37,882 nucleotides of DNA, taken from Spirochaetia bacterium (GTDB taxonomy: Bacteria; Spirochaetota; Spirochaetia; DAHUYW01). Shown here in pieces: positions 18,001-35,693 of the stretch. The DNA is taken from positions 1-37,882 of the forward strand of contig JASHNV010000029.1 of the NCBI GenBank assembly GCA_030041455.1, read 5' to 3'. Position numbers and translations under genes: made by a program. Numbering within the stretch: position 1 is the first letter of the stretch; the number at the start of each line of letters is the position of its first letter. A model generated the notes under the pieces. The model saw only the letters and a list, made by a program, of their open reading frames with translations, did no database searches and had not been told where the DNA came from.

Positions 18001-18840
18001 GGCAAGCGCACCGGCAGGGATCACCGCCATCTCGCGCTTCCGCGCGAGGAGGAAAAGATCCGCTTCCGCGACATCGTCGCCCAGCCGCGGCGCACCATCA
18101 CGTCGCCGATCTGGAGCGGGCTCGACGACGAGGAGATCACCTACAACGCGGGCTACACGAACGTTCACGAGCTCATCCCCTGGCGCACGCTCTCCGGGCG
18201 CCAGGAGCTCTACCTCGACCACCTCTGGATGCGCGCCTTCGGCGAGGCGCTCTGCGTGTACAAGCCTCCGGTGGACACGAGGTCGGTCCCGCCCGCGGAG
18301 GCCCGTTTCGCCGACGGCGGCCCCTACGTCGTGGTGAACTTCCTCACGCCGCACCAAAAGTGGGGCATCCACTCGACGTACTCGGACACGCTCATCATGC
18401 TCACCCTTTCGCGCGGCGGACCGATCGTCTGGATAAGCGAGACCGACGCGAGAAAGGCGGATCTCGTGGACAACGACTGGATCGAGCTCTTCAACGTGAA
18501 CGGGTCCCTCGTCGCGAGGGCGGTCGTGAGCCAGCGAATCCAGCCGGGCACGGTCATGATGTACCACGCCCAGGAGAAGATCGTGAACATCCCGGGAAGC
18601 GTGGCGACCGGCAACCGCGGCGGAATCCACAACTCGGTCACTCGGACGACCGTCAAGCCGACCCACATGATCGGCGGCTACGCGCAGCTGAGCTACGGCA
18701 TGAACTACTACGGAACCGTCGGCTCCAACCGCGACGAGTTCGTCGTCCTTCGCAAGCTCAAGCGGGTCGACTGGCTCGAGGGGCCGCTCGATCCGGCGAG
18801 GCCGCTCGACAGCGCGGCGCGGACGGGGACCCCGACGTGA
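15070..18840 (+). CDS. narG: Respiratory nitrate reductase, alpha subunit
   Basis: 1256 residues, normal for NarG. Catalytic subunit reducing nitrate to nitrite with bis-MGD molybdenum. The FS0 [4Fe-4S] ligands are His50, Cys54, Cys58 and Cys93 (STHGVNCTGSC ... EPRGCPRGAS), the His ligand being diagnostic of NarG over NapA. The Mo-ligating Asp lies in VVISPDYSEATKFADLW. RVCGFSPIPAMSMVSYASG, CGCVGQSGGGWAHYVGQEK and RNLFVWRSNLLGSSGKGHEY are conserved. C-terminal MGD-binding motifs such as NRGGIHNSVTRTTVKPTHMI are intact. It starts immediately after the Rrf2 stop and its TGA overlaps the GTG of narH, so translation is coupled throughout. The N-terminal MSHFGSFLQFFRKN is the vestigial leader usual in NarG; the enzyme faces the cytoplasm. 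Confidence 0.98.
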   Translation: MSHFGSFLQFFRKNLETFSDGHGVVTGESRAWEEGYRTRWQHDKIVRSTHGVNCTGSCSWKIYVKGGIVTWETQQTDYPRTRPDMPNHEPRGCPRGASYSWYLYSGNRLKYPMVRGRLLRLWRDARARLAPVEAWRSIVEDPERRKSYLSARGLGGFVRSSWDEVNEIIASANVYTIRRYGPDRVCGFSPIPAMSMVSYASGSRYLSLIGATCLSFYDWYCDLPPSSPQTWGEQTDVPESADWYNAMFLILWGSNVPQTRTPDAHFYSESRYKGTQSVVISPDYSEATKFADLWIHPKAGTDSALAMAMGHVILKEFHVERRSEYFSDYCRRFSDFPFLVRLVKRGESYVPERLLRASDFPDGLGETNNPEWKTCAFDELSGRLVAPRGSIGYRWGEEGAWNLEERAGTDGAAVRLRLSAADAPEGPADCLPVAFPYFGTYKHDHYSGTQHPDVLVRRVPVMRVETREGIVPAATVFDLIVANYGVDRGLGGGNVASSYDEDLPYTPAWQERVTGVSRNLVITTARQFADTAEKTRGKSMVILGAGVNHWYNMDLTYRGIINMLVFCGCVGQSGGGWAHYVGQEKVRPQVGWATLAFATDWYRPPRQMNGTSFFYAHTDQWRYEKVSAKELLSPTAPEGDWDVSLIDYNVRAERMGWLPSAPQLEGNPLDVARAAEAAGERVSDYVTKRLKSGEIRLATEDPDNPENFPRNLFVWRSNLLGSSGKGHEYFLRHLLGAQNSVLGKDLGELGERKPTEVVWRDAPIGKLDLLVTLDFRMSTTCLYSDIVLPTATWYEKNDLNTSDMHTFIHPLSSAVDPIWQARSDWDIYRGIAYKFSEVARGVLGVEKDLVLTPLMHDSPSELGQALDVKDWKRGECEPIPGKTAQAMTVVERDYTSVGAMYTSLGPLLSSLGNGGKGMSWKTETEVEYLRRLNGEVSEAGPALGRPRIWTDIEAAEAVMTLAPETNGSVAVKAWEALGKRTGRDHRHLALPREEEKIRFRDIVAQPRRTITSPIWSGLDDEEITYNAGYTNVHELIPWRTLSGRQELYLDHLWMRAFGEALCVYKPPVDTRSVPPAEARFADGGPYVVVNFLTPHQKWGIHSTYSDTLIMLTLSRGGPIVWISETDARKADLVDNDWIELFNVNGSLVARAVVSQRIQPGTVMMYHAQEKIVNIPGSVATGNRGGIHNSVTRTTVKPTHMIGGYAQLSYGMNYYGTVGSNRDEFVVLRKLKRVDWLEGPLDPARPLDSAARTGTPT

Positions 18841-20549
18841 AGATCCGCGCGCAAATCGGCATGGTCCTCAATCTCGACAAGTGCATCGGCTGCCACACCT
18901 GCTCGGTCACCTGCAAGAACGTGTGGACCTCCCGCGAGGGCATGGAATACGCGTGGTTCAACAACGTCGAGACCAAGCCGGGCATCGGCTACCCGAAGGA
19001 GTGGGAGGACCAGAAGCGCTGGTTCGGAGGCTGGCAGCGCCTGCCGAACGGCGAGATCAGGCCGAGGCAGGGAGGGAAGTGGCGCATCCTCGCGAAGATC
19101 TTCGGCAATCCCCACCTCCCGGAGATCGACGACTACTACGAGCCGTGGACCTACGACTACGAGCACCTCCACACCGCCGGAGAGTCGCGGACCTCGCCCG
19201 TCGCCCGGCCGGTGAGCGCGATCACCGGCGAGCGGATGGAGAAGATCGTCTGGGGGCCGAACTGGGAAGAGATCCTCGGCGGCGAGTTCGAGAAGCGGAG
19301 CAAGGACTACAACTTCGAGGACGTGCAGAAGGAGATCTACGGAGAGTTCGAGAACACCTTCATGATGTACCTGCCGCGGCTGTGCGAGCACTGTCTCAAT
19401 CCGGCCTGCGTCGCCTCCTGCCCGACCGGCGCGATCTACAAGCGCGAGGAGGACGGGATCGTCCTGATCGACCAGGAGAAGTGCCGGGGGTGGCGCATGT
19501 GCGTGAGCGGCTGTCCCTACAAGAAGATCTACTACAACTGGAAGACGGGAAAATCGGAGAAGTGTATCTTCTGCTATCCGCGCATCGAGTCCGGGCTTCC
19601 GACCGTGTGCTCGGAGACCTGCGTCGGACGGATCCGCTACCTCGGCGTGCTCCTGTACGACGCGGACCGCATCAAGGAGGCGGCGAGCACGGAGGCGGTC
19701 GGTGACCTCTACGAGGCGCAGCTCGGCGTCTTCCTCGATCCGAGCGACCCCGAGGTCGAGCGCCAGGCGCTCGAGGACGGCATTCCGCAGGCGTGGATCG
19801 ACGCCGCGCGGCGGTCGCCGGTCTATAAGATGGCCGTGCAGTGGAAGATCGCGTTTCCCCTCCACCCGGAGTACCGCACGCTTCCGATGGTCTGGTACGT
19901 TCCGCCGCTCTCTCCGGTCCAGGCGGCGCTCGAGAACGGCTACATCGAGCGCAAGGAGATCATACCGGACGTCGAGTCGCTCCGCATCCCGATGCGCTAC
20001 CTCGCGAATCTTCTCACCGGCGGAAGGATCGAGCCGGTCGCCCTCGCGCTGAAGCGCATGCTCGCGATGCGAAGCTTCATGAGGAAAAAGAACATCGAGG
20101 GGGTCCCGGACGAGCGAATCGTCGAGGCGGTCGGCATGACGCGAACCGAGGTCGAGGAGATGTACCGCCTCATGGCCATCGCCAACTACGAGGACCGCTA
20201 CGTGATCCCGACGACCCACCGCGAAGAGGTGGAGGACGCCTACGAGCTTCGGGGCGGCTGCGGCTTCACCTTCGGGGACGGCTGCGCCTCGGGCGGACTC
20301 ACCGGCGGAGCGCCGGCGCAGGAGAGCTCTCGGTCGCGCCCTTTGGCTTTCGACCCGGCGCAGACTCTCGGAATGCCTTCGACCGGGACGTTCGTCAATC
20401 GCGGCTCGCTCTTCAGCAAGCCCGAGCTCCGCGAGCGGATCCGCGCCGCCGTCGAGCGGCGAAAGGCCCTCGGGCTCGCGCCGAGGGTCCTGGCCGACGG
20501 CACGGTTCAGCCGCCCGGCGGCGCGCCTCCCGCGCCGAGCCCGGCGTAG
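18837..20549 (+). CDS. narH: Respiratory nitrate reductase, beta subunit
   Basis: 570 residues from GTG 18837, whose last bases overlap the narG TGA (GTGA). Carries electrons from NarI to NarG. Cluster ligands begin at Cys16, 19, 22, 26 (KCIGCHTCSVTCKNVWTSRE). RLCEHCLNPACVASCPTGAI and KCRGWRMCVSGCPYKK follow; the Trp in CRGW replaces a Cys and makes the [3Fe-4S] centre, as in E. coli. SEKCIFCYPRIESGLPTVC completes the set. The first 515 residues align with E. coli NarH nearly throughout. About 60 extra residues follow GDGCASGG, containing MPSTGTFVNRGSLFSKPELR and ending Pro/Ala-rich; I know no function for this tail. The frame is also open far upstream within narG, but that is a shadow. Confidence 0.98.
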   Translation: MKIRAQIGMVLNLDKCIGCHTCSVTCKNVWTSREGMEYAWFNNVETKPGIGYPKEWEDQKRWFGGWQRLPNGEIRPRQGGKWRILAKIFGNPHLPEIDDYYEPWTYDYEHLHTAGESRTSPVARPVSAITGERMEKIVWGPNWEEILGGEFEKRSKDYNFEDVQKEIYGEFENTFMMYLPRLCEHCLNPACVASCPTGAIYKREEDGIVLIDQEKCRGWRMCVSGCPYKKIYYNWKTGKSEKCIFCYPRIESGLPTVCSETCVGRIRYLGVLLYDADRIKEAASTEAVGDLYEAQLGVFLDPSDPEVERQALEDGIPQAWIDAARRSPVYKMAVQWKIAFPLHPEYRTLPMVWYVPPLSPVQAALENGYIERKEIIPDVESLRIPMRYLANLLTGGRIEPVALALKRMLAMRSFMRKKNIEGVPDERIVEAVGMTRTEVEEMYRLMAIANYEDRYVIPTTHREEVEDAYELRGGCGFTFGDGCASGGLTGGAPAQESSRSRPLAFDPAQTLGMPSTGTFVNRGSLFSKPELRERIRAAVERRKALGLAPRVLADGTVQPPGGAPPAPSPA

Positions 20550-20553
20550 CGCC

Positions 20554-21237
20554 GTGGTCACCTTTCAGGTTCTAGCCGGGCTTCTCGACTATCCGAGCGA
20601 GCGGCTTGCGGGAGAGCTCCGGGAGATGCGCGAGATCCTCGAGCGCGAGGCCCTCGTCGGCGCCGAGGAGCTCTCCGCGCTCGACCCCCTGTTCCGCGAG
20701 CTTGCCGAGCGCGACCTTTACGAGCTGCAGGAGCGCTACGTCGAGCTCTTCGACCAATCGCGATCGCTGTCGCTCTACCTCTTCGAGCACGTCTACGGCG
20801 AGTCGCGCGACCGCGGGCAGTCCATGGTCGACCTCCTCGCGCGCTACGCCGCGATCGGGCTCGAGCTCGACGCGCGGGAGCTGCCCGACTTCCTTCCGGC
20901 CTTTCTGGAGTACCTCTCGCAGCTTCCGCTCGATCGGGCGCGCCGGGAGCTCGGCGAAGCGGTGGCGGTCCTGAGGGTCCTCGCCGACCGCCTCGCCCGG
21001 CGGGCGAGCCCGTACGCCGAGGTCATCCGAGCGATCGAGCACATCGCGGAGGCGGAGCCGACTCCCGCGGATCTCGAGGAGCTCGCGCTCGAGGAGCTTC
21101 CCGGGGGCGGGGCTTCCGGGTCGGCCGACGACGAGTGGGAGGAGGCCCCCGTGGACTTCAGCCGGGACGAGGCCGCCTTCGCGGGACGCCAGCGCGCCCG
21201 GTCGCTCGGCGCCGCGCGCCGAAAGAAGGAGACATGA
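20554..21237 (+). CDS. narJ: Nitrate reductase assembly chaperone
   Basis: 227 residues from GTG 20554, four bases after narH. NarJ binds apo-NarG, guiding Fe-S and Mo-cofactor insertion and membrane attachment; it is not part of the final enzyme. The all-helical sequence shows FQVLAGLLDYPSERL, LYELQERYVELFDQSRSLSL and YLFEHVYGESRDRGQSMVDL, the core NarJ/TorD-family motif, then ELPDFLPAFLEYLSQLP. The C-terminal 50 residues are acidic then basic (DEWEEAPVDFSRDEAAFAGR). Its TGA overlaps the narI ATG (ATGA). Confidence 0.95.
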   Translation: MVTFQVLAGLLDYPSERLAGELREMREILEREALVGAEELSALDPLFRELAERDLYELQERYVELFDQSRSLSLYLFEHVYGESRDRGQSMVDLLARYAAIGLELDARELPDFLPAFLEYLSQLPLDRARRELGEAVAVLRVLADRLARRASPYAEVIRAIEHIAEAEPTPADLEELALEELPGGGASGSADDEWEEAPVDFSRDEAAFAGRQRARSLGAARRKKET

Positions 21238-21947
21238 TTGCCTTTGCCAACACGCTGATCTTCGGGTACTACCCCTACGTCGCGCTGAGCGTTTTCCTCA
21301 CGGGGAGCGTCGTCCGCTACAACCGCACCCAATACCTCTGGAGGAGCGGGTCGAGCGAGCTCCTGCGCAAGCGCGAGCTCGTGATCGGGAGCACGCTCTT
21401 TCACTACGGAGTGCTCGTCGTCCTCGGCGGCCACCTCGTCGGCTTCGTCACGCCGGACGCCGTCCTCGATTTTCTCGGCGTGTCGCTCCGAGCCCACCAG
21501 CTCCTCGCGGTCGTCGCCGGCGGAATCTCCGGGACGGCGGCGTGGGTCGGCCTCACCCTCCTCGTGCACCGCAGGCTCTTCGATCCGCGGATCCGCAAGA
21601 CCTCAAGCGCGATGGGCATTTTCGTTTTGCTCCTCGTCTGGGTGCAGCTCACGTTCGGCCTCGCCACGGTTCCGCTCACGCTCCACCACCTCGACGGCCG
21701 AATGTTCCAGGTCCTCGTCCACTACGTGCAGTCGATTCTCTACTTCCAGCCCGGCGGCGCCGCGACGCTCCTCCCGGTGAGCTGGGTCTACAAGGTCCAC
21801 ATTTTCCTCGGCTTCACCTTCTTCCTCGTCTGGCCCTTCAGCCGGCTCGCGCACATTTGGAGCGCGCCGGTCTGGTACCTCCTCCGCCTCTACCAGGTGG
21901 TGAGGCGGAGGAAGGCGCCGGCTCGGAGGAGGGGGATGCCGTCGTGA
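21234..21947 (+). CDS. narI: Respiratory nitrate reductase, gamma subunit (cytochrome b)
   Basis: 237 residues, five hydrophobic spans. Oxidises quinol at the outer face of the inner membrane and passes electrons to NarH. The haem-ligand histidines are at 57 and 67 (LFHYGVLVVLGGHLVGF) and at 189 and 207 (VHIFLGFTFFLVWPFSRLAH), the same spacing as the four ligands of E. coli NarI. FANTLIFGYYPYVAL and VVRYNRTQYLWRSGSSELL begin the protein as usual. It overlaps narJ by ATGA and ends inside the GTG start of ppiC. Confidence 0.97.
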   Translation: MIAFANTLIFGYYPYVALSVFLTGSVVRYNRTQYLWRSGSSELLRKRELVIGSTLFHYGVLVVLGGHLVGFVTPDAVLDFLGVSLRAHQLLAVVAGGISGTAAWVGLTLLVHRRLFDPRIRKTSSAMGIFVLLLVWVQLTFGLATVPLTLHHLDGRMFQVLVHYVQSILYFQPGGAATLLPVSWVYKVHIFLGFTFFLVWPFSRLAHIWSAPVWYLLRLYQVVRRRKAPARRRGMPS

Positions 21948-24761: not shown

Positions 24762-24777
24762 TGTAGAGACCCGCGAT
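24762..24777 (+). repeat. Left terminal inverted repeat of the transposon
   Basis: TGTAGAGACCCGCGAT matches the inward-read right end at 14 of 16 positions (positions 7 and 8 differ). TCGAGGA occurs 30 bases in from this end and again about 44 bases in from the other end in the same inward orientation; it might be part of a second transposase site, but a 7-mer is weak evidence. Confidence 0.9.
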
Positions 24778-24936
24778 GGGGTCTAAGGATTCGAGGAGAA
24801 ATGCCGAATTGATTTAGTTAGACATTGAGGGAAAGGAGAAGGGAAACCGGGACTTTCTTGGTGTGACGACCATCCCGATCTCCCCTCAGCAACCATTATT
24901 CTACTCGACATTTCCGCGCATGACTATAGCGTTTCT

Positions 24937-25524
24937 GTGCTCGTGGCCGAGTGGCCGAACCTTCTGAAGCAGATGAAGTGTCCTCGGTGCCGGACGGAGG
25001 GGCGGTTTGGGTTTCACGGGACCTACGAGAAGTATCACTTCTCCCGACGAATCAGCATCATCAGGGTTCGGTGTCTGCGCTGTAGAGTCACCCACGCACT
25101 GATTCCGTCGTTCTCGCTGCCGGGCACCTCGATCGGTACCCCGGAGGCTGAGGCCTATCTGATTGCTCGGGCCGAGGGAGCGTCGCGAACCAAGGCGGGA
25201 AGAATCCTGCTGGAGCAGGGAATGAGCGAGTCCTCGGCGAAGCGGCTTGATCGGATGCTGGACGTTGCCGTCCGCCGCGGCAAGGCGTTGCTTGCCGGGA
25301 ACGGCGATCCGCAGGTATCGGGTTTGGCCTGGATCGGGTCGGTGTGCGGCCCCACGAAGCGGCCGCTGTACGCCATCAATCGCTTCGGTCTGGATCGGCG
25401 GGTCAACGGATTGTGCTTCTGCCGCGCTGCCATCCTGCAGTTTCGTCGATTTCCCGTCAGCGGCAAGACTCCACCTACCTTGTATTCTGTCGTAGCCGAA
25501 CGCGGACTTGTAGACTCCCGGTAG
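24937..25524 (+). CDS. Zinc-ribbon transposon protein (DUF6431-like)
   Basis: 195 residues from GTG 24937. No ribosome binding site is clear and the frame stays open upstream, reading TIILLDISAHDYSVS just before it, so the real start may be a rare codon near 24892-24898. Two CxxC pairs, MKCPRCRTEGRFGFHG and RVRCLRCRVTHALI, form a treble-clef or zinc-ribbon module near the N-terminus. A helical stretch follows, AEAYLIARAEGASRTKAGRI and MSESSAKRLDRMLDVAVRRG, that looks like a helix-turn-helix. I recall such proteins as DUF6431 next to transposase genes; function unknown. It sits 29 bases before the transposase gene, so co-expression is likely. By position and zinc motif it could serve target choice or end binding, analogous to TniQ, but this is inference. 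Confidence 0.65.
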   Translation: MLVAEWPNLLKQMKCPRCRTEGRFGFHGTYEKYHFSRRISIIRVRCLRCRVTHALIPSFSLPGTSIGTPEAEAYLIARAEGASRTKAGRILLEQGMSESSAKRLDRMLDVAVRRGKALLAGNGDPQVSGLAWIGSVCGPTKRPLYAINRFGLDRRVNGLCFCRAAILQFRRFPVSGKTPPTLYSVVAERGLVDSR

Positions 25525-25553
25525 TCACGATTGATCACCGGGAGGATCGGGCT

Positions 25554-26969
25554 TTGAACGACAAGGAACGCGAACGACAGATCGAGGAGGTGACGGAGTT
25601 TCGCTTCCAGATCGTCGCCGAGCTCGCCAACCCCTACCTGAGCTCCGCAGAGCGAAAGAGGCTGATAGGTCAGAAGGCGAGTATCGAATACGATGTGCCC
25701 GGCAGCGGCCGTAGACGCTTCAGCGAAGGGTGTATCCTGAAGTGGCTTGCGCGCTTCCGTATCCATGGCAAAGACGGCCTGCGGCCTCGCAGCCGCAGAG
25801 ACTCAGGCAGCTGCCGGTCGCTCAGCCGCGAAGAGGCGGCATTGCTGATCAATCACCTGGAGGCCGAGCCGTCGCTCACCGCCATCGCCATGCTTCGCAG
25901 GCTTCAGGCCGCCGATCTCATCCGCAGCACCCCCTCAAGCTCATCGCTGTCGCGATTGATTCGATCGGCGGGGATGGACCGAACGCGTCGGCTGCGCATG
26001 CAGAGCCAGAACAAAAACCTGAAGTTCGACTTTTTCACTCCCCTTGAATGCGTCCAGGCCGATGCCATGTACAGCGTGAAGATCCCCGATGAGAAGGGCA
26101 AGCTCCGCTTTGCGATTCTCATCGCCTTCATCGATGACGCAACGCGTCGGGTGCTCTTCGCGGGGTTCTCGTTCTCCGAAAGCTCTCTGACCTTCGAGGC
26201 GGGCATCCGACACATTCTCGCTGCGCACGGGAGAATCGGCAGACTCTACGTCGACAACGGCTCGACGTTCGTCGGCACCCAGACTCAGCGCATCCTTGCC
26301 ACCCTCGGTATTATCCTCGTCCACTCACGACCCGGCCGTCCACAGGGTCGCGGAAAAGTGGAGCGATTTTTTCGTACGACGCGCGAGCAATTCTTCTCAC
26401 CCCTTGAGGTGAAAACGCTCCGCGGAATCGAAGACCTCGATCGGCGCTTTCATTCGTGGCTTGAAAGCGAGTACCACCGCACCCCCCACCGAGGCCTGGA
26501 GAAGCAGACACCCCTTGAAGCCTGGGTGGAGAAAGCGCATCTGATCATCCCCCTGGACCCGGCCGTCAACCTCGAGGAGGCATTCCTCCACGAGGCAAGC
26601 CGCAGAGTGCACAAGGACTCGACGATCACCCTGGAGGGGTCGCTCTTCGAGGTACCCTCGATCGTGGCAGGCGAGCGGATTACCGTCCGCTACAACCCTC
26701 ATGTCAGTCCCGGCCGCCGAAGACTCCAGATCCTGAAGGACGGCCAGTTCATCGGCGAAGCACGCCTGGTGGACTCTTATGCCAACACCAGGGTCCGGCG
26801 CAACGACATGAATAAGCAGATCGAGATCGCCGACAGCGAGCCGGCCGAAGAACCTTCCCCGCCGCGGCGGCCGATCGACAATTCCCTTTCCGCTTCGCGC
26901 TTTGACGTGGTCCCACCGGCCGACGATAGCGAAGATCAGGATCACGCGCACCAGGAGACCGATCGATGA
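25554..26969 (+). CDS. DDE transposase of the Mu/TniA/IstA type
   Basis: 471 residues from TTG 25554, chosen for GGGAGGA 8-9 bases upstream; the frame is open further upstream but overlaps the zinc-ribbon gene. Cuts and joins transposon ends to target DNA. Residues 1-150 hold helix-turn-helix end-binding domains (FSEGCILKWLARFRIHGKDG, then SREEAALLINHLEAEPSLTA). The RNase H-fold catalytic core has Asp170 (CVQADAMYSV), Asp234 (LYVDNGSTFVG) and Glu270 (GRPQGRGKVERFFRT), giving DD35E spacing. It continues FHSWLESEYHRTPHRGLEKQ and a beta-barrel with RITVRYNPHVSPGRRRLQIL, as in TniA, MuA and IstA. The C-terminus is Pro/acidic (EPSPPRRPIDNS ... DDSEDQDHAHQ), plausibly the ATPase-binding tail. Stop overlaps the ATPase start (ATGA). 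Confidence 0.95.
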   Translation: MNDKERERQIEEVTEFRFQIVAELANPYLSSAERKRLIGQKASIEYDVPGSGRRRFSEGCILKWLARFRIHGKDGLRPRSRRDSGSCRSLSREEAALLINHLEAEPSLTAIAMLRRLQAADLIRSTPSSSSLSRLIRSAGMDRTRRLRMQSQNKNLKFDFFTPLECVQADAMYSVKIPDEKGKLRFAILIAFIDDATRRVLFAGFSFSESSLTFEAGIRHILAAHGRIGRLYVDNGSTFVGTQTQRILATLGIILVHSRPGRPQGRGKVERFFRTTREQFFSPLEVKTLRGIEDLDRRFHSWLESEYHRTPHRGLEKQTPLEAWVEKAHLIIPLDPAVNLEEAFLHEASRRVHKDSTITLEGSLFEVPSIVAGERITVRYNPHVSPGRRRLQILKDGQFIGEARLVDSYANTRVRRNDMNKQIEIADSEPAEEPSPPRRPIDNSLSASRFDVVPPADDSEDQDHAHQETDR

Positions 26970-27769
26970 ACAGCCGCGAATACTTAAGCTTCTACGGGTT
27001 GTCCTCGCTGCCGTTCACCAAGGAGATCCCCACCGCAGAGCTCCTGACGCTGCCGTCGGTAGAACGGCACCTCGCCGCGGCGCGCCTGCTCGTGGAGACC
27101 CGAGGCATCGGGGTCATTACCGGGAAGGCCGGGACGGGCAAGAGCTGTCTCCTCCGGCTGCTGGCCGAAAGCCTCCCGCCCGGGCTCTACAAGCCGTTGT
27201 ACCTCTGCCACAGTTCCGTCGGGCTCGTGGAGTTCTACACCCACCTCGTCAGCCTCTTCGGCATCGAGCCGTCCTACCGTCGGGCAACCATGTTCCGCGA
27301 TCTGCAGCACCACATTCTCTCGATGAACGCAAGTTCCCACGTTCACCCGGTCTTGCTCGTCGACGAGAGCCAGCTGCTGAACAACGAAATCCTCGCCGAG
27401 ATACGGCTCCTGACCAACTACCAGTTCGACTCGATGAACGCGCTCACCGTCGTGCTGTGCGGCGACGAGACGCTCACCCGAAAGTTCGGTCTCTCGATGC
27501 TCGAGTCCCTCGCCAACTCCATTACCGTGATGATCTCACTGGAAGCGCTGGCGAAGGAGGAATCTTTCGCCTATATCGAAACCCGCCTGGCAGCCTGTGG
27601 GTTGAAACACCCGGTGTTCACCAAGAACGCTCTGGAGCTCGTTCACCAGGCCTCAGGCGGCATCCTGAGAACCATCGGCACCATCGCCAACGCGGCGTTG
27701 GTGAAGGCCTACCTGATCAAAAGTCCCCAGGTGGAAGCCGAGCACGTTCAGGCCGTCATCGGCCGCTGA
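26966..27769 (+). CDS. AAA+ transposition ATPase (TniB/ExeA/IstB-like)
   Basis: 267 residues. Expected to assemble on target DNA, select the target and activate the transposase, as TnsC, TniB, MuB and IstB do. Begins YLSFYGLSSLPFTKEIPTAE, the ExeA-like entry. Walker A GKAGTGKS at 53-60, Walker B PVLLVDESQ at 128-136 and a sensor-1 region ALTVVLCGDETLTRK; then LEALAKEESFAYIETRLAAC, and the lid domain GGILRTIGTIANAALVKAYL. The ExeA-like N-terminus makes it closer to TniB/ExeA than to IstB. Translationally coupled to the transposase by ATGA; a small accessory gene follows 8 bases later. Confidence 0.93.
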   Translation: MNSREYLSFYGLSSLPFTKEIPTAELLTLPSVERHLAAARLLVETRGIGVITGKAGTGKSCLLRLLAESLPPGLYKPLYLCHSSVGLVEFYTHLVSLFGIEPSYRRATMFRDLQHHILSMNASSHVHPVLLVDESQLLNNEILAEIRLLTNYQFDSMNALTVVLCGDETLTRKFGLSMLESLANSITVMISLEALAKEESFAYIETRLAACGLKHPVFTKNALELVHQASGGILRTIGTIANAALVKAYLIKSPQVEAEHVQAVIGR

Positions 27770-27777
27770 GCACCGTC

Positions 27778-28098
27778 ATGCATCAGTTCCACGATGAGAC
27801 AGAATCGTTGCTCCACGAGGTGTATGCGATCGGTCCGTTCACCGCATGGCTCGCCGAACGACTGACCAGACACGCCGTTCGCCAGACCTGCTGGCAATGC
27901 CGGCACCTCCTCTGCTACGCGCGAACCTTCTCACCCCCACGATTGGAAGCGGCCGTCGCTTGCATGATGTCCTACGGCGTCTACGACATCGCTTCTCTTC
28001 GCTTCCTCCTCGAACAGGACCCGCTTCCCGTTCCACGCCGCACTGACTCAGACCTCGACGGTCAGCTGAGACTCCCCCTGGAAGACGACATCTTCTGA
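27778..28098 (+). CDS. Small transposon protein resembling the C-terminal part of IstA
   Basis: 106 residues, starting 8 bases after the ATPase stop. The middle, HAVRQTCWQCRHLLCYARTF and SPPRLEAAVACMMSYGVYDI, then ASLRFLLEQ, resembles the end of IS21 IstA proteins, where a 'R..QGYRSCLGILRLA..YG.ERLEAACRRAL..GA.SYRSV.SIL' pattern is seen. Here the segment stands as a separate protein rather than the tail of the transposase. A CxxC pair plus a third Cys (TCWQCRHLLC) could bind zinc; I do not recall such a motif in IstA. The C-terminus is DSDLDGQLRLPLEDDIF. Probably a transposase or ATPase accessory factor; that is inference from position and the weak similarity. Confidence 0.6.
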   Translation: MHQFHDETESLLHEVYAIGPFTAWLAERLTRHAVRQTCWQCRHLLCYARTFSPPRLEAAVACMMSYGVYDIASLRFLLEQDPLPVPRRTDSDLDGQLRLPLEDDIF

Positions 28099-28249
28099 CC
28101 TTCAGCCACAAGGTTCCCGCGTTGAGATCGTGTTTCCGGAAATCGGCAATCGATTGAACATCCCCACAATGCGGGAGAAAGGAAAAAAACGCGTCAAAAT
28201 CCTCGACTACAGTGCGGTATTCCCGGTCACAGGATCGCGGGAATCTACA
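28099..28249 (-). repeat. Right end region and terminal inverted repeat of the transposon
   Basis: The terminal repeat itself is 28234-28249 (ATCGCGGGAATCTACA on the plus strand). The preceding 135 bases carry no gene and should hold additional transposase-binding sites; TCCTCGA at 28200-28206 mirrors TCGAGGA near the left end. A short A-rich run (GAAAGGAAAAAAACG) lies at about 28176-28192. Confidence 0.8.
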
Positions 28250-28649
28250 CCTGGGTCTGCTTGATCTGTTGATCCTTGGCCGCAAGCTCGGCCTGAGTCT
28301 GTTTTCGAACCTCGTCGAGAAGCTTGCCTTCGGCCGAGAAGAAGGTGCCGGCCTGACTTGAAATTTCGTTTTGCTGTTTGTTGAATACGATTTTTGCGAC
28401 GAAAAAACCCGCAACAACGGCCACGACTGCTGCCCCGTTGATGAGGAGGGGAAAGACTATTCCGTTTCTCTTCGGTTTAAGGTCGAACTGGTCGGGAGTG
28501 ACGGCTATCTTGTTTTCGGCCACTACACGGTCGATGGTGTCGAGAATCTCCTTCCGGTCTTCCTTCGAGACCTTTTGACTGTCCAGGAGAAGCAAATCTT
28601 CGCTTTCGTCGCGCTTTGGCGCAGGAGCGTTGGACTCTGGTCTGATCAT
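28245..28649 (-). pseudogene. Membrane-anchored coiled-coil protein, N-terminal fragment (split by transposon)
   Basis: ATG 28649 has GGGAG 7-10 bases upstream. 134 codons are read before a TAG lying in the transposon end; the native gene stops at the CCTGG at 28250-28254. Residues 1-62 are charged and cytosolic (KEDRKEILDTIDRVVAENKI, then VTPDQFDLKPKRN). A single transmembrane helix spans about 63-89 (FPLLINGAAVVAVVAGFFVA). The outside part begins the coiled coil (EVRKQTQAELAAKDQQIKQT). Joined at Gln133 to DALTKLDQDEANLRQ in the other fragment it gives one 657-residue chain. I recall spirochaete proteins with this 'TP+.F.L.PKRNG..FPL.+N' entry to the membrane; memory only. The truncated, membrane-anchored product could still be made. 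Confidence 0.88.
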
Positions 28650-28903
28650 GCGTTACTCCCTGTTCGCGTCGCCTTCAGGTCGACCGCTTCGGCGATCCCA
28701 CGGACGAAGTCAAGCGACCGCTCGTATCTCTCCGTCCGACTGCGAAATCTCGTTTGGGTCCACGACCCTCCACCCGTTTCGGGAACGTGCGCCGACGCCG
28801 CGTCCGGCGGCGGTCGACCATCGGAAAGGCCTCTCATCCTCTTCGCGACGAAGGTCCCTACAATGGCTCTACTCGGCTATCATTGCGTCAAGCGAGAGAA
28901 GAT

Positions 28904-28927
28904 GTCTTCCCCCATTTGGGGGAAGAC
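28904..28927. promoter_or_regulatory. Long perfect palindrome, copy 1 (possible operator or hairpin)
   Basis: GTCTTCCCCC-ATTT-GGGGGAAGAC: two perfect 10-base arms around ATTT. The core TTCCCCCATTTGGGGGAA and the next bases GACGG recur at 34474-34496. It stands between the divergent coiled-coil gene (start 28649) and the cyclase (start 29194), 226 bases before the leader peptide. Confidence 0.6.
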
Positions 28928-28994
28928 GGGCGCGCCGGTCCGTTCAATACTTCAGCCGACAATTCGGGACTTGGGCGAGGGTGTGTCGATCGCG

Positions 28995-29022
28995 CCGTGG
29001 ACCTCTCTTGGAGAGACCACGG
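28995..29022. other. Stem-loop upstream of the cyclase gene
   Basis: CCGTGG (28995-29000) pairs with CCACGG (29017-29022) and, inside it, CTCTC (29003-29007) pairs with GAGAG (29011-29015) around TTG. An AC/A internal loop separates the two stems. If transcribed it would be a stable leader hairpin about 130 bases before the leader peptide. No T tract. Confidence 0.4.
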
Positions 29023-29152
29023 TGATCAGGTGCGAGCCCCTGTGAAGCCCTCCCTACGAGATCTTCAGTCAGACATCCGGGGCGCGGAGAGCGAGTAGAC
29101 GAAGCGAGATGCGGTGAACGGTCGGAATGCGGGAAGCGAAGGAGAGATTCAG

Positions 29153-29197
29153 ATGAATGGAAAAATTGTAGACGTAAACGAACGGTCAATCCGATGA
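29153..29197 (+). CDS. 14-residue leader peptide coupled to the cyclase
   Basis: AAGGAGAG lies 7 bases before ATG 29153, a far better ribosome binding site than any before the cyclase start. The frame reads MNGKIVDVNERSIR and its TGA overlaps the cyclase ATG (ATGA at 29194-29197). This arrangement suggests that cyclase translation depends on ribosomes finishing the leader. No amino acid is over-represented, so classical attenuation is unlikely. Confidence 0.5.
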   Translation: MNGKIVDVNERSIR

Positions 29198-30852
29198 AAA
29201 TACGCACGAAGATCACATGGGTCGTTTTGCCCCTGTTGGTCGCGACCCTGCTCATCACCGGGATAATCTCCTCCCAGTCGGCGAGAAGCGGCATTACGAG
29301 GGTCGCGGTCGCCGCACTGGGCTTTAAAGCGCAGGAGCTCAATAAATATATGGAAAGCCAATGGAATCTGCTTGTGACGAACAAGTTGGCCGACTCTCCC
29401 GACTACGTGAATGTCGCGGAGAATGCCGTAGGTTCCTATGCCGCGTCAATCCTACGGAGCAATACCGAGCTCATTTTCGCAGTCGATTCGCAAGGACGCG
29501 TTCCGATGGCGACGTCGCCGGTGGCGTTGTCCGATGCCGAGAGGCAGAAGCTCCTCGGATATTTCAAGGACAACTACCAAGGATGGGTAGATACCGTCGT
29601 CCAAGGCAAAGAGGTCGTCGGCCAGACCTTCGTCTTTCAGCCGTTCGGCTGGTACGTTTTCGTGACAGAGCGCAAGGACGTTTTCTTTCGGGACGTTACC
29701 GCGATTACGATTCAGAGCGTCATCGTGCTGCTCGTCTCGGCGGCGCTATCGTTGGTGCTCCTGATCGTCTTCTCGCTGTACCTCACCCGGCCTCTTACGA
29801 CCGTCGCCGGTGCGATGCGGGTCATCATCCGCGACAACGACCTGACCTCGCGAGTCGCCGTCGAGTATAAAGACGAGATCGGCGAGCTCGCCAACACCTT
29901 CAATATCATGATCGGAGAGCTCGACCGGGCGTATCGTCAGATCAAGGAGTTCGCGCTTCGGGCCGTCATCGCGCAGAAGAACGAGCACAAAATTCGCAAC
30001 ATCTTTCAAAAATACGTTCCCAAGGACGTCATCGATAACTTCTTCGAGAACCCCGAGTCGATGCTGGTGGGCGAAAATCGCGTCCTCGCTATTCTCTTCT
30101 CCGACATCCGCAGCTTCACGACGATCTCCGAGGGATTCATGCCCGACGAGCTCGTCCAAGCCCTGAACAAGTACTTCTCCATCATGGTCGATATCATCAT
30201 GGGCAGGAACGGCATCATCGACAAGTACATCGGCGACGCGATTATGGCATTCTACGGGGCTCCGGTGCGGCACGACGACGACGCGCTGCAATCTGTCCTT
30301 TCGGCGATCGAGATGCAGGAGGGTCTCCACGAGTTCAACCGAGAGCAAAAGGCGGCCGGAAGACCCGAGTTCAGAATCGGCGTCGGCATCAATTTCGGAG
30401 AGGTGACGGTAGGGAACATCGGGTCGGAGAAAAAGATGGACTATACGGTCATCGGCGACAACGTGAACCTCGGCTCAAGGCTCGAAGGTCTCACGAAGCA
30501 GTACCACCAGGAGATCGTCTTCTCCACGAGCGTCTACAACTACGTGAAGGACTCGGTTCGTTGCCGGCTCGTCGACAAAGTAGTGGTGAAAGGAAAGACC
30601 ACCGGCGAGGAGATTTTCACCGCCAAGCGCGAGCTCGTGAACGGCGAAGCGGAGGCATGGGAGCACTACAACGCCGGGCTCAAAAACTACTACCAACGCG
30701 ATTTCCCAAAGGCGATTCAACGTTTCGATAAAGCGAAGAAGATTCTGCGCGAGGACTACCTCTGCGACATGTTCACCGAACGGTCGCGCGAGTTCATAAA
30801 GAATCCGCCTGCGCGCGATTGGGACGGAATGGAGGTCAAGCACGAGAAATAG
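29194..30852 (+). CDS. Membrane class III adenylate/guanylate cyclase with Cache and HAMP domains
   Basis: 552 residues. TM1 at about 8-28, an extracytoplasmic sensor about 45-165 (Cache-like: TELIFAVDSQGRVPMATSPV and FQPFGWYVFVTERKD), TM2 at about 172-198, HAMP about 198-250 (TRPLTTVAGAMRVIIRDNDL, then EIGELANTFNIMIGEL). A linker FQKYVPKDVIDNFFENPESM leads to the catalytic domain: metal Asp304 (LFSDIRSFTTIS) and Asp348 (DKYIGDAIMAFYGAP). DYTVIGDNVNLGSRLEGLTK holds the transition-state Asn and Arg. Substrate-contact Lys343 and the DYTVIGD segment favour ATP, so cAMP is the likely product. The C-terminal 60 residues resemble a TPR helix pair (YNAGLKNYYQRDFPKAIQRF). Its weak own ribosome site and overlap with the leader peptide imply coupled translation. 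The domain linker resembles spirochaete cyclases I remember. Confidence 0.9.
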   Translation: MKIRTKITWVVLPLLVATLLITGIISSQSARSGITRVAVAALGFKAQELNKYMESQWNLLVTNKLADSPDYVNVAENAVGSYAASILRSNTELIFAVDSQGRVPMATSPVALSDAERQKLLGYFKDNYQGWVDTVVQGKEVVGQTFVFQPFGWYVFVTERKDVFFRDVTAITIQSVIVLLVSAALSLVLLIVFSLYLTRPLTTVAGAMRVIIRDNDLTSRVAVEYKDEIGELANTFNIMIGELDRAYRQIKEFALRAVIAQKNEHKIRNIFQKYVPKDVIDNFFENPESMLVGENRVLAILFSDIRSFTTISEGFMPDELVQALNKYFSIMVDIIMGRNGIIDKYIGDAIMAFYGAPVRHDDDALQSVLSAIEMQEGLHEFNREQKAAGRPEFRIGVGINFGEVTVGNIGSEKKMDYTVIGDNVNLGSRLEGLTKQYHQEIVFSTSVYNYVKDSVRCRLVDKVVVKGKTTGEEIFTAKRELVNGEAEAWEHYNAGLKNYYQRDFPKAIQRFDKAKKILREDYLCDMFTERSREFIKNPPARDWDGMEVKHEK

Positions 30853-31365
30853 GGGAACTCGGGCTCAATGAGCCGATCAAGGCCGCGCGTGGCCGCTTCG
30901 CGCCCGCGCTGAGCTCCTTTTCGTTCCCCCGGCGTATCGCAAGACGCTCAGCCGAGAAGGCTGAGACAGTCACCGGGTCATGGGTTCGGACCTTCGGGAA
31001 ACTCGCGGCGCAGGAGTCCCTAACGATGCGCCCGACGTGGCGGGACATCCTCGGCGGGGGGGGGAGGCCGTGACCGGCATGGCTGAGGCCTACCCGACGA
31101 CCTTCACGGCGGATAGCGCGAGGGTCTAGGCCAACTTTGCCCGCCCTTTCCCGTATATCCCGATGCCGTCTCCCGCGATGTTCTTTTCAGGCCCCTGTCA
31201 CTTTGTAGGGGGTCGCTTCAAACCGCCTGGAAACGACGGCTCGAACGCGACCGGTTCATGAACGGCATTGCCGGACGCTTCGCCCGGCGCTTCCTCGTTA
31301 TGAGGTCTTGGCAGGAAAGGACCGGCGCGACTGTTGCTTTCCTGAAGGACCGGGGGGGCGATTGA
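30853..31365. other. Intergenic region, no gene seen
   Basis: 513 bases between the cyclase and the response regulator. A small hairpin GGCTC-AAT-GAGCC (30862-30874) follows the cyclase stop by nine bases, without a T tract. GGAAAG (31314-31319) can pair with CTTTCC at about 31337-31342, just before the regulator. Open frames here are short and unlike proteins I know. Confidence 0.3.
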
Positions 31366-32760
31366 ATGTCAATTCCGAAAAGCGAGGCAGTGCTTCTCGT
31401 TGGAACCGATCCATCGGTTATGCTGTCGCTGCAGCGACTCCTTCAGAGCAACGGTTGGCGCGACGTGGAGACCGCGAGCTCCGGGCAGGAGGTTCTGGAA
31501 CAGGCTCAGAAGCGATCGTTCGCGGTGGTTCTCTTCGACCTAGGTCTCCCCGACTTGTCCGCTGACGCGGTATTTCAAGGCTTAAAAGAAAGGAGGCCCG
31601 AAACCCCGATTGTTGTCATGACGTCGAAGAGCGACCTGACCGTCGCGCTCAAATTCGTGGCGACCGGAGCGTTCGACTACGTGCTGAAAGGGAGGGAGAT
31701 CGCACGACTGATCGCGACGGTGGACCGCGCGATCCGCTACTACCAAAAGTCGACGGAACTCACCTCCTTACAGCAGAGCTTCTCATCGACGGACCTCAAG
31801 AATCCGACGGTATTCGCGAATATCGTGACCTCGAACGAGCAGGTCATGAACGTCCTGCGAATGGCCGAGGCGGTAAGCCAGACCGACGAGTCGATTCTCA
31901 TCACGGGAGAAACCGGCGTCGGCAAAGAGCTGCTGGCCCGCGACATCCACATCTGTTCCGGGCGGCCGGGAAGCTTCGTCGGGATTAATGCGGGCGCCTT
32001 GGAGGATCCGGTTTTCGACGACACGCTCTTCGGGCATGTCCGAGGGGCGTTTACCGGAGCCGATCAAATGCGGAAAGGGTTGGCCGCCTCAGCGGACGAC
32101 GGGACTCTTTTCCTCGACGAGGTCGGCGATCTCAAGCCGCAGGGCCAGGTGAAGCTCCTACGCTTTTTGGAGTCAAAGGAATACTTCCCGCTTGGCAGCG
32201 ATTCCCCGCGCCGCAGCTACGCGCGAGTGATCGCCGCGACCAACACCGACCTGGATGCCGCCATCGCGAGAGGAGCGTTTCGAAAGGACCTGCTCTACCG
32301 CCTATCCACTTTTCACCTGTTCCTGCCGCCGCTCCGCGCCAGGCCCGAAGACATCGTACCTATCGGTAACTACCTGCTCGGGCTCTTGACGACCGAGCGG
32401 GGCGGACGCCCCGTCAAGATCACAGCCGGAGCCGCGCGCCTCCTCGAGTCCCTTCCGCTTCCTGGCAACGTTCGGGAGTTGCGGCAGATCCTCCTCAGAG
32501 CCATGATTGCCTCCGGCAGCGGAGATATTGATGGTTCAGTCCTGGAAGCGCTCGGTTACCGTCAGTCCGATTCCGTCCGATTTGACGGCGCGGACGTATC
32601 GTTTCCGTCGAAGCTGCCGACGGTACGCGAGGCGGTCGAAGCGCTCATCCGGGAGGCCCTTCGGCGTACGGGAGGAAAGCAGAGCGCCGCCGGCGCCTTG
32701 ATAGGCCTGTCGCCTCAAGCAATGAGCAAGCGCCTCAAAAAAAGATCATCTACGCCGTAA
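31366..32760 (+). CDS. NtrC-family sigma54-dependent response regulator
   Basis: 464 residues. Receiver domain 1-125 with phospho-acceptor Asp58 (VVLFDLGLPD), switch Thr85 and Lys108; the usual acidic pair is reduced to TD at 14-15. AAA+ domain about 150-385: Walker A GETGVGKE (181-188), sigma54-contact loop GAFTGADQMRKG (from 227), Walker B TLFLDEVGD (247-255), YARVIAATNTDL, FRKDLLYRLSTFHLFLPPLR. A Fis-type HTH closes the protein (TGGKQSAAGALIGLSPQAMS). It should activate sigma54 promoters when phosphorylated; a good -24/-12 site lies 370 bases downstream. No histidine kinase is in the window. The protein ends right after a run of seven A's (KKRSSTP), so a frameshift at the very end is possible but would not touch the HTH. 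Confidence 0.92.
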   Translation: MSIPKSEAVLLVGTDPSVMLSLQRLLQSNGWRDVETASSGQEVLEQAQKRSFAVVLFDLGLPDLSADAVFQGLKERRPETPIVVMTSKSDLTVALKFVATGAFDYVLKGREIARLIATVDRAIRYYQKSTELTSLQQSFSSTDLKNPTVFANIVTSNEQVMNVLRMAEAVSQTDESILITGETGVGKELLARDIHICSGRPGSFVGINAGALEDPVFDDTLFGHVRGAFTGADQMRKGLAASADDGTLFLDEVGDLKPQGQVKLLRFLESKEYFPLGSDSPRRSYARVIAATNTDLDAAIARGAFRKDLLYRLSTFHLFLPPLRARPEDIVPIGNYLLGLLTTERGGRPVKITAGAARLLESLPLPGNVRELRQILLRAMIASGSGDIDGSVLEALGYRQSDSVRFDGADVSFPSKLPTVREAVEALIREALRRTGGKQSAAGALIGLSPQAMSKRLKKRSSTP

Positions 32761-33129
32761 GCCTCGGCTCGCGGGTGTCGCGTCCTGCTAGGACAGGCCT
32801 CCTGCGCCCATTGCGGGGCTTGCGAGCGAACGCTGGACGATTTGTCTCGCGAGTATGATCCCCCCGACTTGGCCAGTGCCTCCCGAAAGCCTCGTCGATC
32901 GATCGGCGCGGGTTGTGTCGCGTTCGCTCGATCTCCTTTGCCGAAGAGAGCCTGCCCGAGAGGGGGATATCAAATACCAGGCTATCAACTTCTGTGGATA
33001 GGGAGTCTCCGGAAGTTGATTGATGAGACACCCTCGACCGCCAAGAGTGGTCCTTGTCAAGTTCGCGGCGCCTCTCTTCTTCATTCAACATAAGGACTTA
33101 CGAATCCCTTCTTCGCGGATGACTGTTTT
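32761..33129. other. Intergenic region upstream of the sigma54 promoter
   Basis: About 370 bases without a recognisable gene. This is where enhancer sites for the adjacent NtrC-type activator would be expected. I did not find a clear repeated or palindromic pair. Confidence 0.25.
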
Positions 33130-33145
33130 TGGCACGATTCGTGCA
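33130..33145 (+). promoter_or_regulatory. Sigma54 (-24/-12) promoter
   Basis: TGGCAC-GATTC-GTGCA. The invariant GG (33131-33132) and GC (33143-33144) have exactly the spacing required by sigma54, and only one position (G for T in TTGCA) departs from consensus. Predicted start near 33156. It reads toward a stem-loop (33173-33211) and then the LuxR-type gene at 33659. The NtrC-type gene just upstream is the obvious candidate activator. Confidence 0.6.
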
Positions 33146-33172
33146 TGTCTTAAGCGGCTCCGGAACGAAGCC

Positions 33173-33211
33173 AAAGCGGCCACTCCTTGGGTGAGTGGAC
33201 ATTGCCGCTTT
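33173..33211 (+). ncRNA. Two-tier stem-loop downstream of the sigma54 promoter
   Basis: Outer arms AAAGCGG (33173-33179) and CCGCTTT (33205-33211); inner arms CCACTC (33180-33185) and GAGTGG (33193-33198), stacked directly on the left with a 6-base bulge (ACATTG) on the right. It begins about 17 bases after the predicted transcription start. It may be part of a small RNA or a structured leader of the LuxR-type mRNA, whose start codon is 450 bases further on. No T tract. Confidence 0.35.
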
Positions 33212-33658
33212 CCGCTGTCAGGATCGAGAAGCAATCGGAGCTTCAACTGTGGGGAACAGCCTATGGTACGAGTTTCGAGAGTTCAGGCGCTACGGCGATG
33301 TCACCACAGAGACCCATGCCATGCAGTCAGGCTCCGGTCTCGACGTTCAGTTGCAGCCGGTTTGCCTCTCGTTAGGCGAGTGCTTATGAGGGCGGACGTC
33401 TCGAGCAACTTTTTCATCGACGTCGAGGAACGGGGATGGAGAACGGGACCCGGGACCGAATACGCCGTGACTCGTAGTCTGTCGGACTGTGCCAGTTTCT
33501 TGCATATTCATGCATCGCGGCAAGGTTTGGCGCATGAAAATGCGCGGTAGGACGGTAGCGCACATATCCATATGTTTAGCTGCATTCGAGACAGGACGCG
33601 ATCGGGAGAAGCGCATCGCCGCCCCGACAGCGGTCGCCTTGCCACACGAGGGTATAAC

Positions 33659-34444
33659 ATGAAAAATGCGGACCTCCTCGGCAAAATTTACGAAAACATC
33701 GGCAAGCCGGGGGCCTTGTTGAGAACCGCGAAACAACTTGCGCCCCTTGTCGAGGAGAGGCTCCGCCTCATTGACCGAACCGCTCTTCGACGGCACGTTC
33801 AGCGGGCGACGGACTTGGAGCAGCGAATCGCCCGTTTGGAGCAGGCGGCGGCATCGCTGGTTGCGCTTGTTGATCATCTTTCGTCTCCCATCCTTGTCAC
33901 CGACAGGAATGCGGTTCTTCGCCACGCAAATGCAGCGGGCGCCGACGCGCTCAGAAAAGCCGACCGCCTTGTTGTCCGCAACGGACATTTGGAGCCGCGG
34001 AATGTGCGCCAGGTGCAGCAATTCACGAAATTGCTGACCTCGGCGATCGCCGAGGACTTCGGGAGGGGCGATCACCGCCTGAACAATTCGATGCGTTTCA
34101 TCGACTCCTCGGGGCACTCCTCCGTTCTCTTCGTCTTTCCGTTGCGCGGGGCAACCAACACGGTGGACGTGGTCGACGCGGTGCTCTTCTTGACTAACCC
34201 CAACTCGAAGTCGGTATGCATCGACAAACGGCTGCAGTCCGCCTTCAACCTGACTCCGGCGGAAACCCGCCTCGCTGGCTACCTAATTCACGGCAACAGC
34301 CTCGCGGAAATCGGCAAGGAGCTCTGTCTCAGCCGAGAGACGCTGAAGAGCCAGCTGACCTCCCTTTTCGGGAAAACAGGCACCCGCCGTCAAAGCGAGG
34401 TAGTGGCGCTCCTGCTTTCCTGTATCACCGTCAGCATTGCCTAA
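33659..34444 (+). CDS. LuxR-type DNA-binding regulator with PAS-like sensor region
   Basis: 261 residues from ATG 33659, with GAGGG 7-9 bases upstream. Residues 40-70 are a coiled-coil-like helix (RRHVQRATDLEQRIARLEQA). Residues 72-180 look PAS-like (DHLSSPILVTDRNAVLRHAN ... SSVLFVFPLRG). The C-terminal HTH (198-255) is LuxR/FixJ type: NLTPAETRLAGYLIHGNSLA, then EIGKELCLSRETLKSQLTSL and FGKTGTRRQSEVVALLL. It binds DNA and probably senses a small ligand or redox state; no autoinducer-binding or receiver domain is seen. A sigma54 promoter lies 500 bases upstream and the second CCCCC-ATTT-GGGGG palindrome starts 30 bases after its stop, so it may be sigma54-controlled and may recognise that palindrome; both are inferences. 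Confidence 0.82.
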   Translation: MKNADLLGKIYENIGKPGALLRTAKQLAPLVEERLRLIDRTALRRHVQRATDLEQRIARLEQAAASLVALVDHLSSPILVTDRNAVLRHANAAGADALRKADRLVVRNGHLEPRNVRQVQQFTKLLTSAIAEDFGRGDHRLNNSMRFIDSSGHSSVLFVFPLRGATNTVDVVDAVLFLTNPNSKSVCIDKRLQSAFNLTPAETRLAGYLIHGNSLAEIGKELCLSRETLKSQLTSLFGKTGTRRQSEVVALLLSCITVSIA

Positions 34445-34473
34445 TCCTGGCTGGCTACGAGCACTTCTCCGAT

Positions 34474-34496
34474 TTCCCCCATTTGGGGGAAGACGG
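34474..34496. promoter_or_regulatory. CCCCC-ATTT-GGGGG palindrome, copy 2
   Basis: TTCCCCC-ATTT-GGGGGAA (arms of 7) followed by GACGG, identical over 23 bases to the copy at 28907-28929. Here it lies 30 bases downstream of the LuxR-type stop codon, so terminator or operator for a downstream unit are both possible. Confidence 0.6.
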
Positions 34497-35282
34497 CACA
34501 CGGCTGGACGGCAGATACTCCATGATCGGAGTTGGCGGAGGGAATAGCCGAGGCAAGGCGCTCGTCGAGCGTCATGCCGCCAAGGAGTCCGCCGTGCACA
34601 CCCGTCGCGGGCGCCGAGCGTATGCTTGAGCCAGTCTCCGATGCCGGTGCGATAAATGGACGAGGTGTATGGAATCTATTGTTCTTGTACCGCTACGGCC
34701 GCGGGAATGTCGTGCCGATCGACCGGCGGGACTTCGGCGCACCTTCGAGCGGCGGCTGAAGCTCAGATCCGCTTCCAGTGGGTATGATCGCACGTCGGCG
34801 CGCGGCCGCGGGAGTCTTGTCGATCGTGGCATCCTCTGTCATCGGCGGAATCCATCGCATGCGTCGTCGTTGCGCCGGGAACCGGGCGACGCTACCGAGA
34901 TCCACCACTCGTTTTTAGCCTCGAATGGATCACCGGGAGGGCCTCTTCGCCGTGCGCCTTCGCGCACTGGTGCCCGATGTCGTCCGAACGAAGCCTCGAG
35001 GGCGGAATTGGACGCCGTATATGAAAGGAGCGCAACACCCGGAATCGACGGATTGCCACACCTTCCGGCGAAGAGCTCGCGGCGTCGCGGACGGCTCCGG
35101 CCGTCGCCGGATGTCTTTCTCGCTCGGTTGAAGGGTACGGCCGCGGAACTCGACTCGATCACTTTCCAGCGTGACAATCCTATTTTTCTTTTCGATTCGG
35201 ACGCCAAATCCGACCGACGGATCCGACCATCAACGGTAGGCCTCCGGTGCTACTGCGGTGTACCCCTGACGGAGCGCGCGCC
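34497..35282. other. Gene-poor stretch before the small protein gene
   Basis: Almost 800 bases. Long open frames on both strands are Arg/Ser-rich and lack start signals. A 44-codon frame at 34784-34918 begins MIARRRAAAGVLSIVASSVI, vaguely like a signal peptide, but has no ribosome binding site. I see nothing that can be called a gene. Confidence 0.3.
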
Positions 35283-35462
35283 ATGCGACCCAAGGCCACG
35301 GACTTGAAGCCAAACCGTTGGTATACGGCATACCACAAGGATTCGGCGCGGGTTCTGCTCGTGATGTACTTGGGCGAAGACGCCCGCGGCATGACATTTC
35401 GCGATAGAGACCACAATCTCTACCAAATGTCAGACTTCTATTTTTGGAAGGCTACCGAGTGA
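35283..35462 (+). CDS. Small protein of unknown function
   Basis: 59 residues, GGAG 8 bases before the ATG. Starts MRPKATDLKPNRWYTAYHKD, continues SARVLLVMYLGEDARGMTFR and ends DRDHNLYQMSDFYFWKATE. The pattern of alternating hydrophobic and polar residues suggests a small beta-sheet protein, rich in Tyr, Trp and Phe. The composition (normal Lys, Asp, Tyr content instead of Arg/Ser/Pro) and the ribosome site argue that it is real. I do not recognise the family. It is isolated: the next gene starts 231 bases later on the same strand. Confidence 0.5.
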   Translation: MRPKATDLKPNRWYTAYHKDSARVLLVMYLGEDARGMTFRDRDHNLYQMSDFYFWKATE

Positions 35463-35693
35463 AGAGAGCCTCCATGTGCGCCGACAGAAACCAGCTTGCG
35501 GCAGTCCCTCTTGCCGGTCTGACGACCCTCGGCACACCTCGACCGGTGGGCCTCAGCCGGCCGAGTGCCGGCGCTCGGGCGAAACTTCATGCGAGCCGTT
35601 CGGCCGCGAGTGTAGGTGATGCGACCGTGGATGCTCGAGGGCTTTCGTGTTGTGGCTTGTGAGCTCGAGAAAATACGAACGGGAGGTCTGCGG

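Follow-up and report, generated by a model that had tools for sequence, protein, structure and literature searches.

The stretch of DNA analysed here (the window, 37,882 nucleotides; contig C37, JASHNV010000029.1 in assembly GCA_030041455.1) belongs to a member of the Spirochaetales whose draft genome amounts to 3.39 Mb in 199 contigs, with a contamination estimate of 4.28%. The window carries a 23-base sequence, TTCCCCCATTTGGGGGAAGACGG, at two sites lying 5.6 kb apart, and, as the earlier note on this DNA had reported, the two copies are identical and in the same orientation. Between them are encoded an adenylate/guanylate cyclase, an NtrC-type response regulator and a LuxR-type regulator (Table 1). 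Copy 1 falls in a 544-bp gap that, according to open reading frame (ORF) coding scores, separates the divergent genes for a truncated coiled-coil protein and the cyclase, the latter starting 264 bp downstream of the element. Copy 2 begins 29 bp past the stop codon of the LuxR-type gene and heads 1.17 kb in which no gene call is convincing. Genes were called with ad hoc scripts, and the gaps between them are unusually long across 28650-35615, at 0.5-1.2 kb each.

Both copies are symmetric, as implied by the earlier description of a palindromic element, although the extent of the symmetry differs: around copy 1 the palindrome is perfect over 24 bp, whereas in copy 2 it is limited to the 18 bp of TTCCCCCA-TT-TGGGGGAA (34474-34491), with 8-base arms. 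Present in both is TCCCCCA-TT-TGGGGGA, an AT-centred, symmetric arrangement of the form 7-2-7 contained in one of the form 8-2-8. The flank GACGG (CCGTC on the other strand) is also common to the two copies and lies outside the palindrome, on one side only; beyond the shared 23 bases no similarity was found between the flanks of the two copies. In a 51-nt fold, the hairpin of copy 1 reaches -26.4 kcal/mol (z -3.45), and the fold of copy 2 reaches -22.9 kcal/mol (z -2.80).

A chance origin of the pair can be rejected, both from the lengths of repeats in random sequences and from the number of core matches. TTCCCCCATTTGGGGGAAGACGG is the longest exact direct repeat of the window, while the longest repeats in 60 first-order Markov sequences of the same length and composition measured 14-19 bases. 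For the 14-base core with up to two mismatches, 0.21 matches are expected by chance and five are seen in the window, four of which are the two copies, each read on both strands. An 11-base palindrome arm is not rare by itself (8 of the 60 random sequences contain one of at least 11 bases), and what exceeds chance is the exact repetition, not the length of the arms.

The genome-wide count of the motif and of its positions relative to genes, as proposed in the earlier note, was obtained by pattern searches and gives two copies, both intergenic and both at one gene cluster. CCCCCATTTGGGGGAA, allowing one mismatch, occurs twice in the whole genome; over 16 bases, no other sequence comes as close as one mismatch. 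If the 4-base centre is left free and up to three mismatches are tolerated, the full motif gains a single weak site on another contig (C133), besides both copies read in reverse. A relaxed motif with one mismatch gave 12 sites in this genome, G000 (8 in controls), and 10 in G001, the only other genome of the genus (24 in controls), so that looser matches show no clear excess over control; the extra sites of G000 for which gene calls were available lie mostly inside predicted genes, and among those inspected there is no evident further site. A high-copy dispersed repeat, which the earlier note had listed as a possible source, is rejected for this genome by a count of two in 3.39 Mb. The same note had reasoned that a lack of further copies would point to chance or to local duplication: further copies are indeed lacking, but chance is ruled out and a copying event remains.

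The reading that is tentatively favoured, on grounds of sequence and gene order, is that both copies serve as operators for a single local dimeric regulator, for which the LuxR-type protein of the cluster is the most likely candidate. Local regulators usually leave a small number of sites next to their own gene, and this reading is preferred because there are just two such sites in the genome, both beside the gene of a regulator of this kind. The arrangement of the element also fits. The output domain of NarL, a GerE-type helix-turn-helix (HTH), prefers inverted heptamers that are two base pairs apart, and an engineered NarL test site, TACCCCTAAAGGGGTA, has the C4/G4 half-site layout that is found in the palindrome (PMC4549865). 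Both copies here contain inverted heptamers with a 2-bp spacer, and the cluster encodes a protein with a candidate GerE-type HTH, which scores 18.4 bits against PF00196 (cut-off 23.5), is accompanied by a PAS_4 match and aligns along its length with the HTH structures of GerE, DosR and ComA in the PDB, at E values of 0.02-0.2.

According to this proposal, a dimer of the LuxR-type protein would bind TCCCCCA-TT-TGGGGGA, with one seven-base half-site per subunit. Copy 1 would control the cyclase gene and formerly also the divergent coiled-coil gene, which is now broken by a transposon, while copy 2, located behind the regulator's own gene, would act on downstream transcription or loop with copy 1. 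We infer all three components of this scheme, that is, that the element is a protein site, that the LuxR-type protein is its binder and which genes respond. From the perspective of known systems, the element shares with the operators of the NarL/DosR/GerE type the inverted seven-base half-sites, the 2-bp A/T centre, the C/G runs and the adjacent gene for a GerE-type HTH protein. It differs from them in the extra one-sided GACGG and in a candidate protein without a receiver domain, and the TCCCCCA half-site agrees only partly with the NarL heptamer.

Comparison with relatives is compatible with an operator of the LuxR-type protein, in that site and putative regulator are missing together from one genome. 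The nearest relatives of the cyclase are found in metagenome-assembled genomes of the Spirochaetales/Spirochaetaceae. In one of them, locus L021, which belongs to G001 as judged from identical match counts and places, the cyclase gene adjoins an uninterrupted version of the same coiled-coil gene, and the gap between the two (~0.15-0.17 kb) contains no palindrome. Neither a good copy of the motif anywhere in G001 nor a match to the NtrC-type gene at E <= 1e-90 in that genome was found. Searches of G001 and of the 394 class genomes other than the window's own returned no relative of the LuxR-type gene at E <= 1e-12, the only relative at this threshold being a paralogue on another contig (C75) of its own genome. 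The palindrome and the LuxR-type gene are thus jointly missing from the sole same-genus genome. The simplest inference from this comparison would be that the palindrome arrived with, or after, a remodelling of the locus. The earlier view that the copies frame a signalling cluster holds for position, with the genes for the cyclase and for the NtrC-type and LuxR-type proteins enclosed by them, but in L021 the cyclase gene already has the same upstream neighbour and the element is missing.

Several observations weigh against an operator of the LuxR-type protein. No further site accompanies the paralogue on C75, where the best match has five mismatches, as in shuffled DNA; this paralogue may read a different site. 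The retention of GACGG on one side only is unexpected for a symmetric operator. The distance from copy 1 to the start of the cyclase gene is 264 bp, no convincing gene start is found for ~0.8 kb downstream of copy 2, and the intergenic regions of both copies are devoid of promoter-like matches. Finally, the GerE match of the candidate protein stays under the Pfam cut-off, and the joint absence from the relative counts as a single event, given that one same-genus genome exists. Of the options in the earlier note, a LuxR-type operator is still the best supported, on account of the number of copies, their place at the cluster, the 7-2-7 layout and the joint absence in the same-genus genome, whereas binding by the protein is a proposal. 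As for the paralogue itself (L113:8300-9400), it has 366 residues and matches at 45% over the C-terminal part; its N-terminal part is longer, and the LuxR-type protein of the window is without roughly 80-100 residues of it. The sequence CCCC-N6-GGGG, which occurs twice upstream of the paralogue, was rejected as a site, its similarity to the full motif being no better than that of shuffled DNA.

Table 1. Positions of the repeat copies and of the surrounding features, numbered along the window.
Feature	Position	Strand	Basis or remark
Copy 1 of TTCCCCCATTTGGGGGAAGACGG	28907-28929	+	Exact repeat; one of two genomic sites
Copy 2 of TTCCCCCATTTGGGGGAAGACGG	34474-34496	+	Exact repeat; begins 29 bp past the LuxR-type gene
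Perfect 24-bp palindrome GTCTTCCCCCA-TT-TGGGGGAAGAC, 11-base arms, around copy 1	28904-28927		Palindrome and fold
HAMP and adenylate/guanylate cyclase, 552 aa	29194-30852	+	Pfam PF00672, PF00211; 76% identical in L021
Coiled-coil gene, 5' remnant left by a transposon insertion; divergent from the cyclase gene	28245-28649	-	Corresponds to the N-terminal part of a 741-aa protein in L021
NtrC-type response regulator, 464 aa: receiver, sigma-54 AAA+, Fis-type HTH	31366-32760	+	Pfam; solved NtrC-family relatives
LuxR-type regulator, 290 aa, weak PAS and GerE-type HTH; candidate binder of the palindrome	33572-34444	+	PF00196, PAS_4
Sigma-54 promoter-like TGGCACGATTCGTGCA, upstream of the LuxR-type gene	33130-33145	+	Top -24/-12 match in the window

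Among the alternatives, the one that survives best, although we regard it as rather unlikely, is a low-copy mobile or copied palindrome similar to the repetitive extragenic palindromic (REP) elements, in which copy 2 would be the product of transposition-like copying of the hairpin in single-stranded DNA. The minus strand of each copy reads CCGTC-TTCCCCCAAATGGGGGAA, that is, a CGTC tag followed by a stem that opens with two A/T pairs and carries a 4-base loop, and the bases shared by the two copies outrun the palindrome only on the side of the tag; the place of copy 2, 29 bp behind a stop codon, is also the usual one for a REP. The CGTC repeats have been described, Spirochaetes included, with stems of 8-9 bp that open on two A/T positions, with loops of 4-5 bases and without a known transposase (PMC3733652). 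The element accordingly resembles the CGTC-1 to CGTC-4 REPs, among them dRS3 of Neisseria, in its CGTC end (CGTCTTCCCCCAAATGGGGGAA on the minus strand of both copies), short stem, two initial A/T pairs, 4-base loop and intergenic location. In contrast to these families, which are high-copy, it exists in two copies in 3.39 Mb, and no dRS3- or CGTC-REP-like sequences were found in 89 kb of this genome. Instead of an unpaired 3' tail that is mostly CCA, the minus-strand tails read GAC and ATC. The tag, unpaired in a REP, is partly base-paired in copy 1, and copy 1 lies between divergent genes, whereas REPs are predominantly located between convergent or same-direction genes. Because of the two copies, the missing CCA tail, the paired tag and the divergent-gene site, the element is not classed as a REP, and of the dispersed small repeat of the earlier note only a low-copy, REP-like origin is left, by virtue of the CGTC-like tag. 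A combination of both readings, with a CGTC-tagged hairpin at the birth of a REP-like family, copied once 5.6 kb away and possibly co-opted as an operator of the LuxR-type protein, is very unlikely.

It is improbable that the copies function as RNA hairpins, either as factor-dependent or T-less terminators or as stabilisers of mRNA ends, with copy 2 serving the LuxR-type transcript and copy 1 an unrecognised one. The hairpins of both copies are very stable and copy 2 is suitably placed just past a stop codon. Moreover, although the outer 5' arms are unlike between the copies, most of their pairing on the plus strand with the invariant 3' arm GGGGGAAGACGG persists, G-U pairs included. Against this, neither GC-rich stem is followed by a T-run of the usual kind, on the plus strand or on the other, which leads to the rejection of a canonical terminator; a terminator scan called only the minus strand of copy 1, with the weak tail ATCTTCTCTC and no gene there to terminate. 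The other gene ends of the window lack such a sequence, terminators need no shared sequence, and no known RNA family of Rfam was detected in the window. The transcription-ending hairpins that the earlier note had considered are hence poorly supported, copy 1 being located between divergent genes.

Even less probable is a role of the copies as upstream activating sites for the NtrC-type activator. With the upstream activating sequences of the NtrC family they have in common the symmetric dyad, with an A/T centre, and the vicinity of a sigma-54 activator gene; the genome encodes rpoN, and the best of the -24/-12 matches in the window, TGGCACGATTCGTGCA, scores 19.2 of 20.2 on an ad hoc sigma-54 scale. 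This match, the nearest good one, is however separated from copy 1 by 4.2 kb and from copy 2 by 1.3 kb, and no comparable match occurs within 800 bp downstream of either copy, such that neither has the fitting sigma-54 promoter within a few hundred bases that would be expected of an enhancer. Nor does any such palindrome occur near the NtrC relatives of other spirochaetes (36-42% identical), where nothing similar is conserved. The NtrC-type operator proposed in the earlier note therefore fares badly, as the one good promoter match has no copy nearby. The promoter match itself is situated just past the NtrC-type gene, with ~430 bp separating it from the LuxR-type gene downstream, and suggests that the NtrC-type gene may drive the LuxR-type gene.

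Lastly, att-like recombination repeats flanking an acquired island are extremely unlikely: the copies are direct identical repeats 5.6 kb apart, and the intervening NtrC-type and LuxR-type genes are without close counterparts elsewhere in the genus, but an island bounded in this way is disfavoured because the interval is not absent from relatives as a whole, its cyclase gene being resident in L021, next to the same upstream neighbour, and a search for a recombinase gene between the copies found none.

Searches in wider collections returned little that resembles the element. In a 60-genome search, the exact core was found in the window's own genome and in no relative, and the 18-base form with two mismatches is sporadic across 395 class genomes, at one or a few sites per genome. 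The 23-mer was not found in viral collections. A viral contig (L145, 5850-6300) contains CTTCCCCCATTTGGGGGAAG among many different short palindromes, inside an ORF of 244 aa; with one occurrence and a different, palindrome-rich setting, it was discarded as a counterpart. The two intergenic regions (the first and last gap of 28650-35615) gave no match in a plasmid collection, and the core sequence was not found in the literature searched.

Upstream of copy 1, a transposon of ~3.5 kb (24762-28249) encodes DUF6431-like, DDE integrase and AAA ATPase proteins, the ATPase gene being single-copy in the genome. Its ends are the inverted TGTAGA..../....TCTACA, with a 5-bp target duplication, CCTGG, and it splits the coiled-coil gene, the L021 counterpart of which is uninterrupted (741 aa). 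The copies are not part of this transposon, the ends of which stop ~650 bp before copy 1. The window also contains, at 10464-21947, genes for a respiratory nitrate reductase (alpha, delta and gamma by Pfam, with beta expected between them), together with those for an Rrf2 regulator, a major facilitator superfamily (MFS) transporter, moeA and mobAB-like genes. The palindrome, similar to NarL sites, lies in the same window as these genes, a link between the two being only conjectural.

Whichever reading applies, the pair is a small local feature, unusual but no new kind of thing. A low-copy CGTC-tagged palindrome, if that is what it is, would represent a two-copy stage with a bearing on how CGTC repeats, for which no transposase is known, arise. 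If it is a pair of operators, it would provide a testable DNA target for a PAS/GerE-type LuxR regulator, a type that is seemingly very rare in the class, and would tie a LuxR-type regulator to cyclic-nucleotide signalling.

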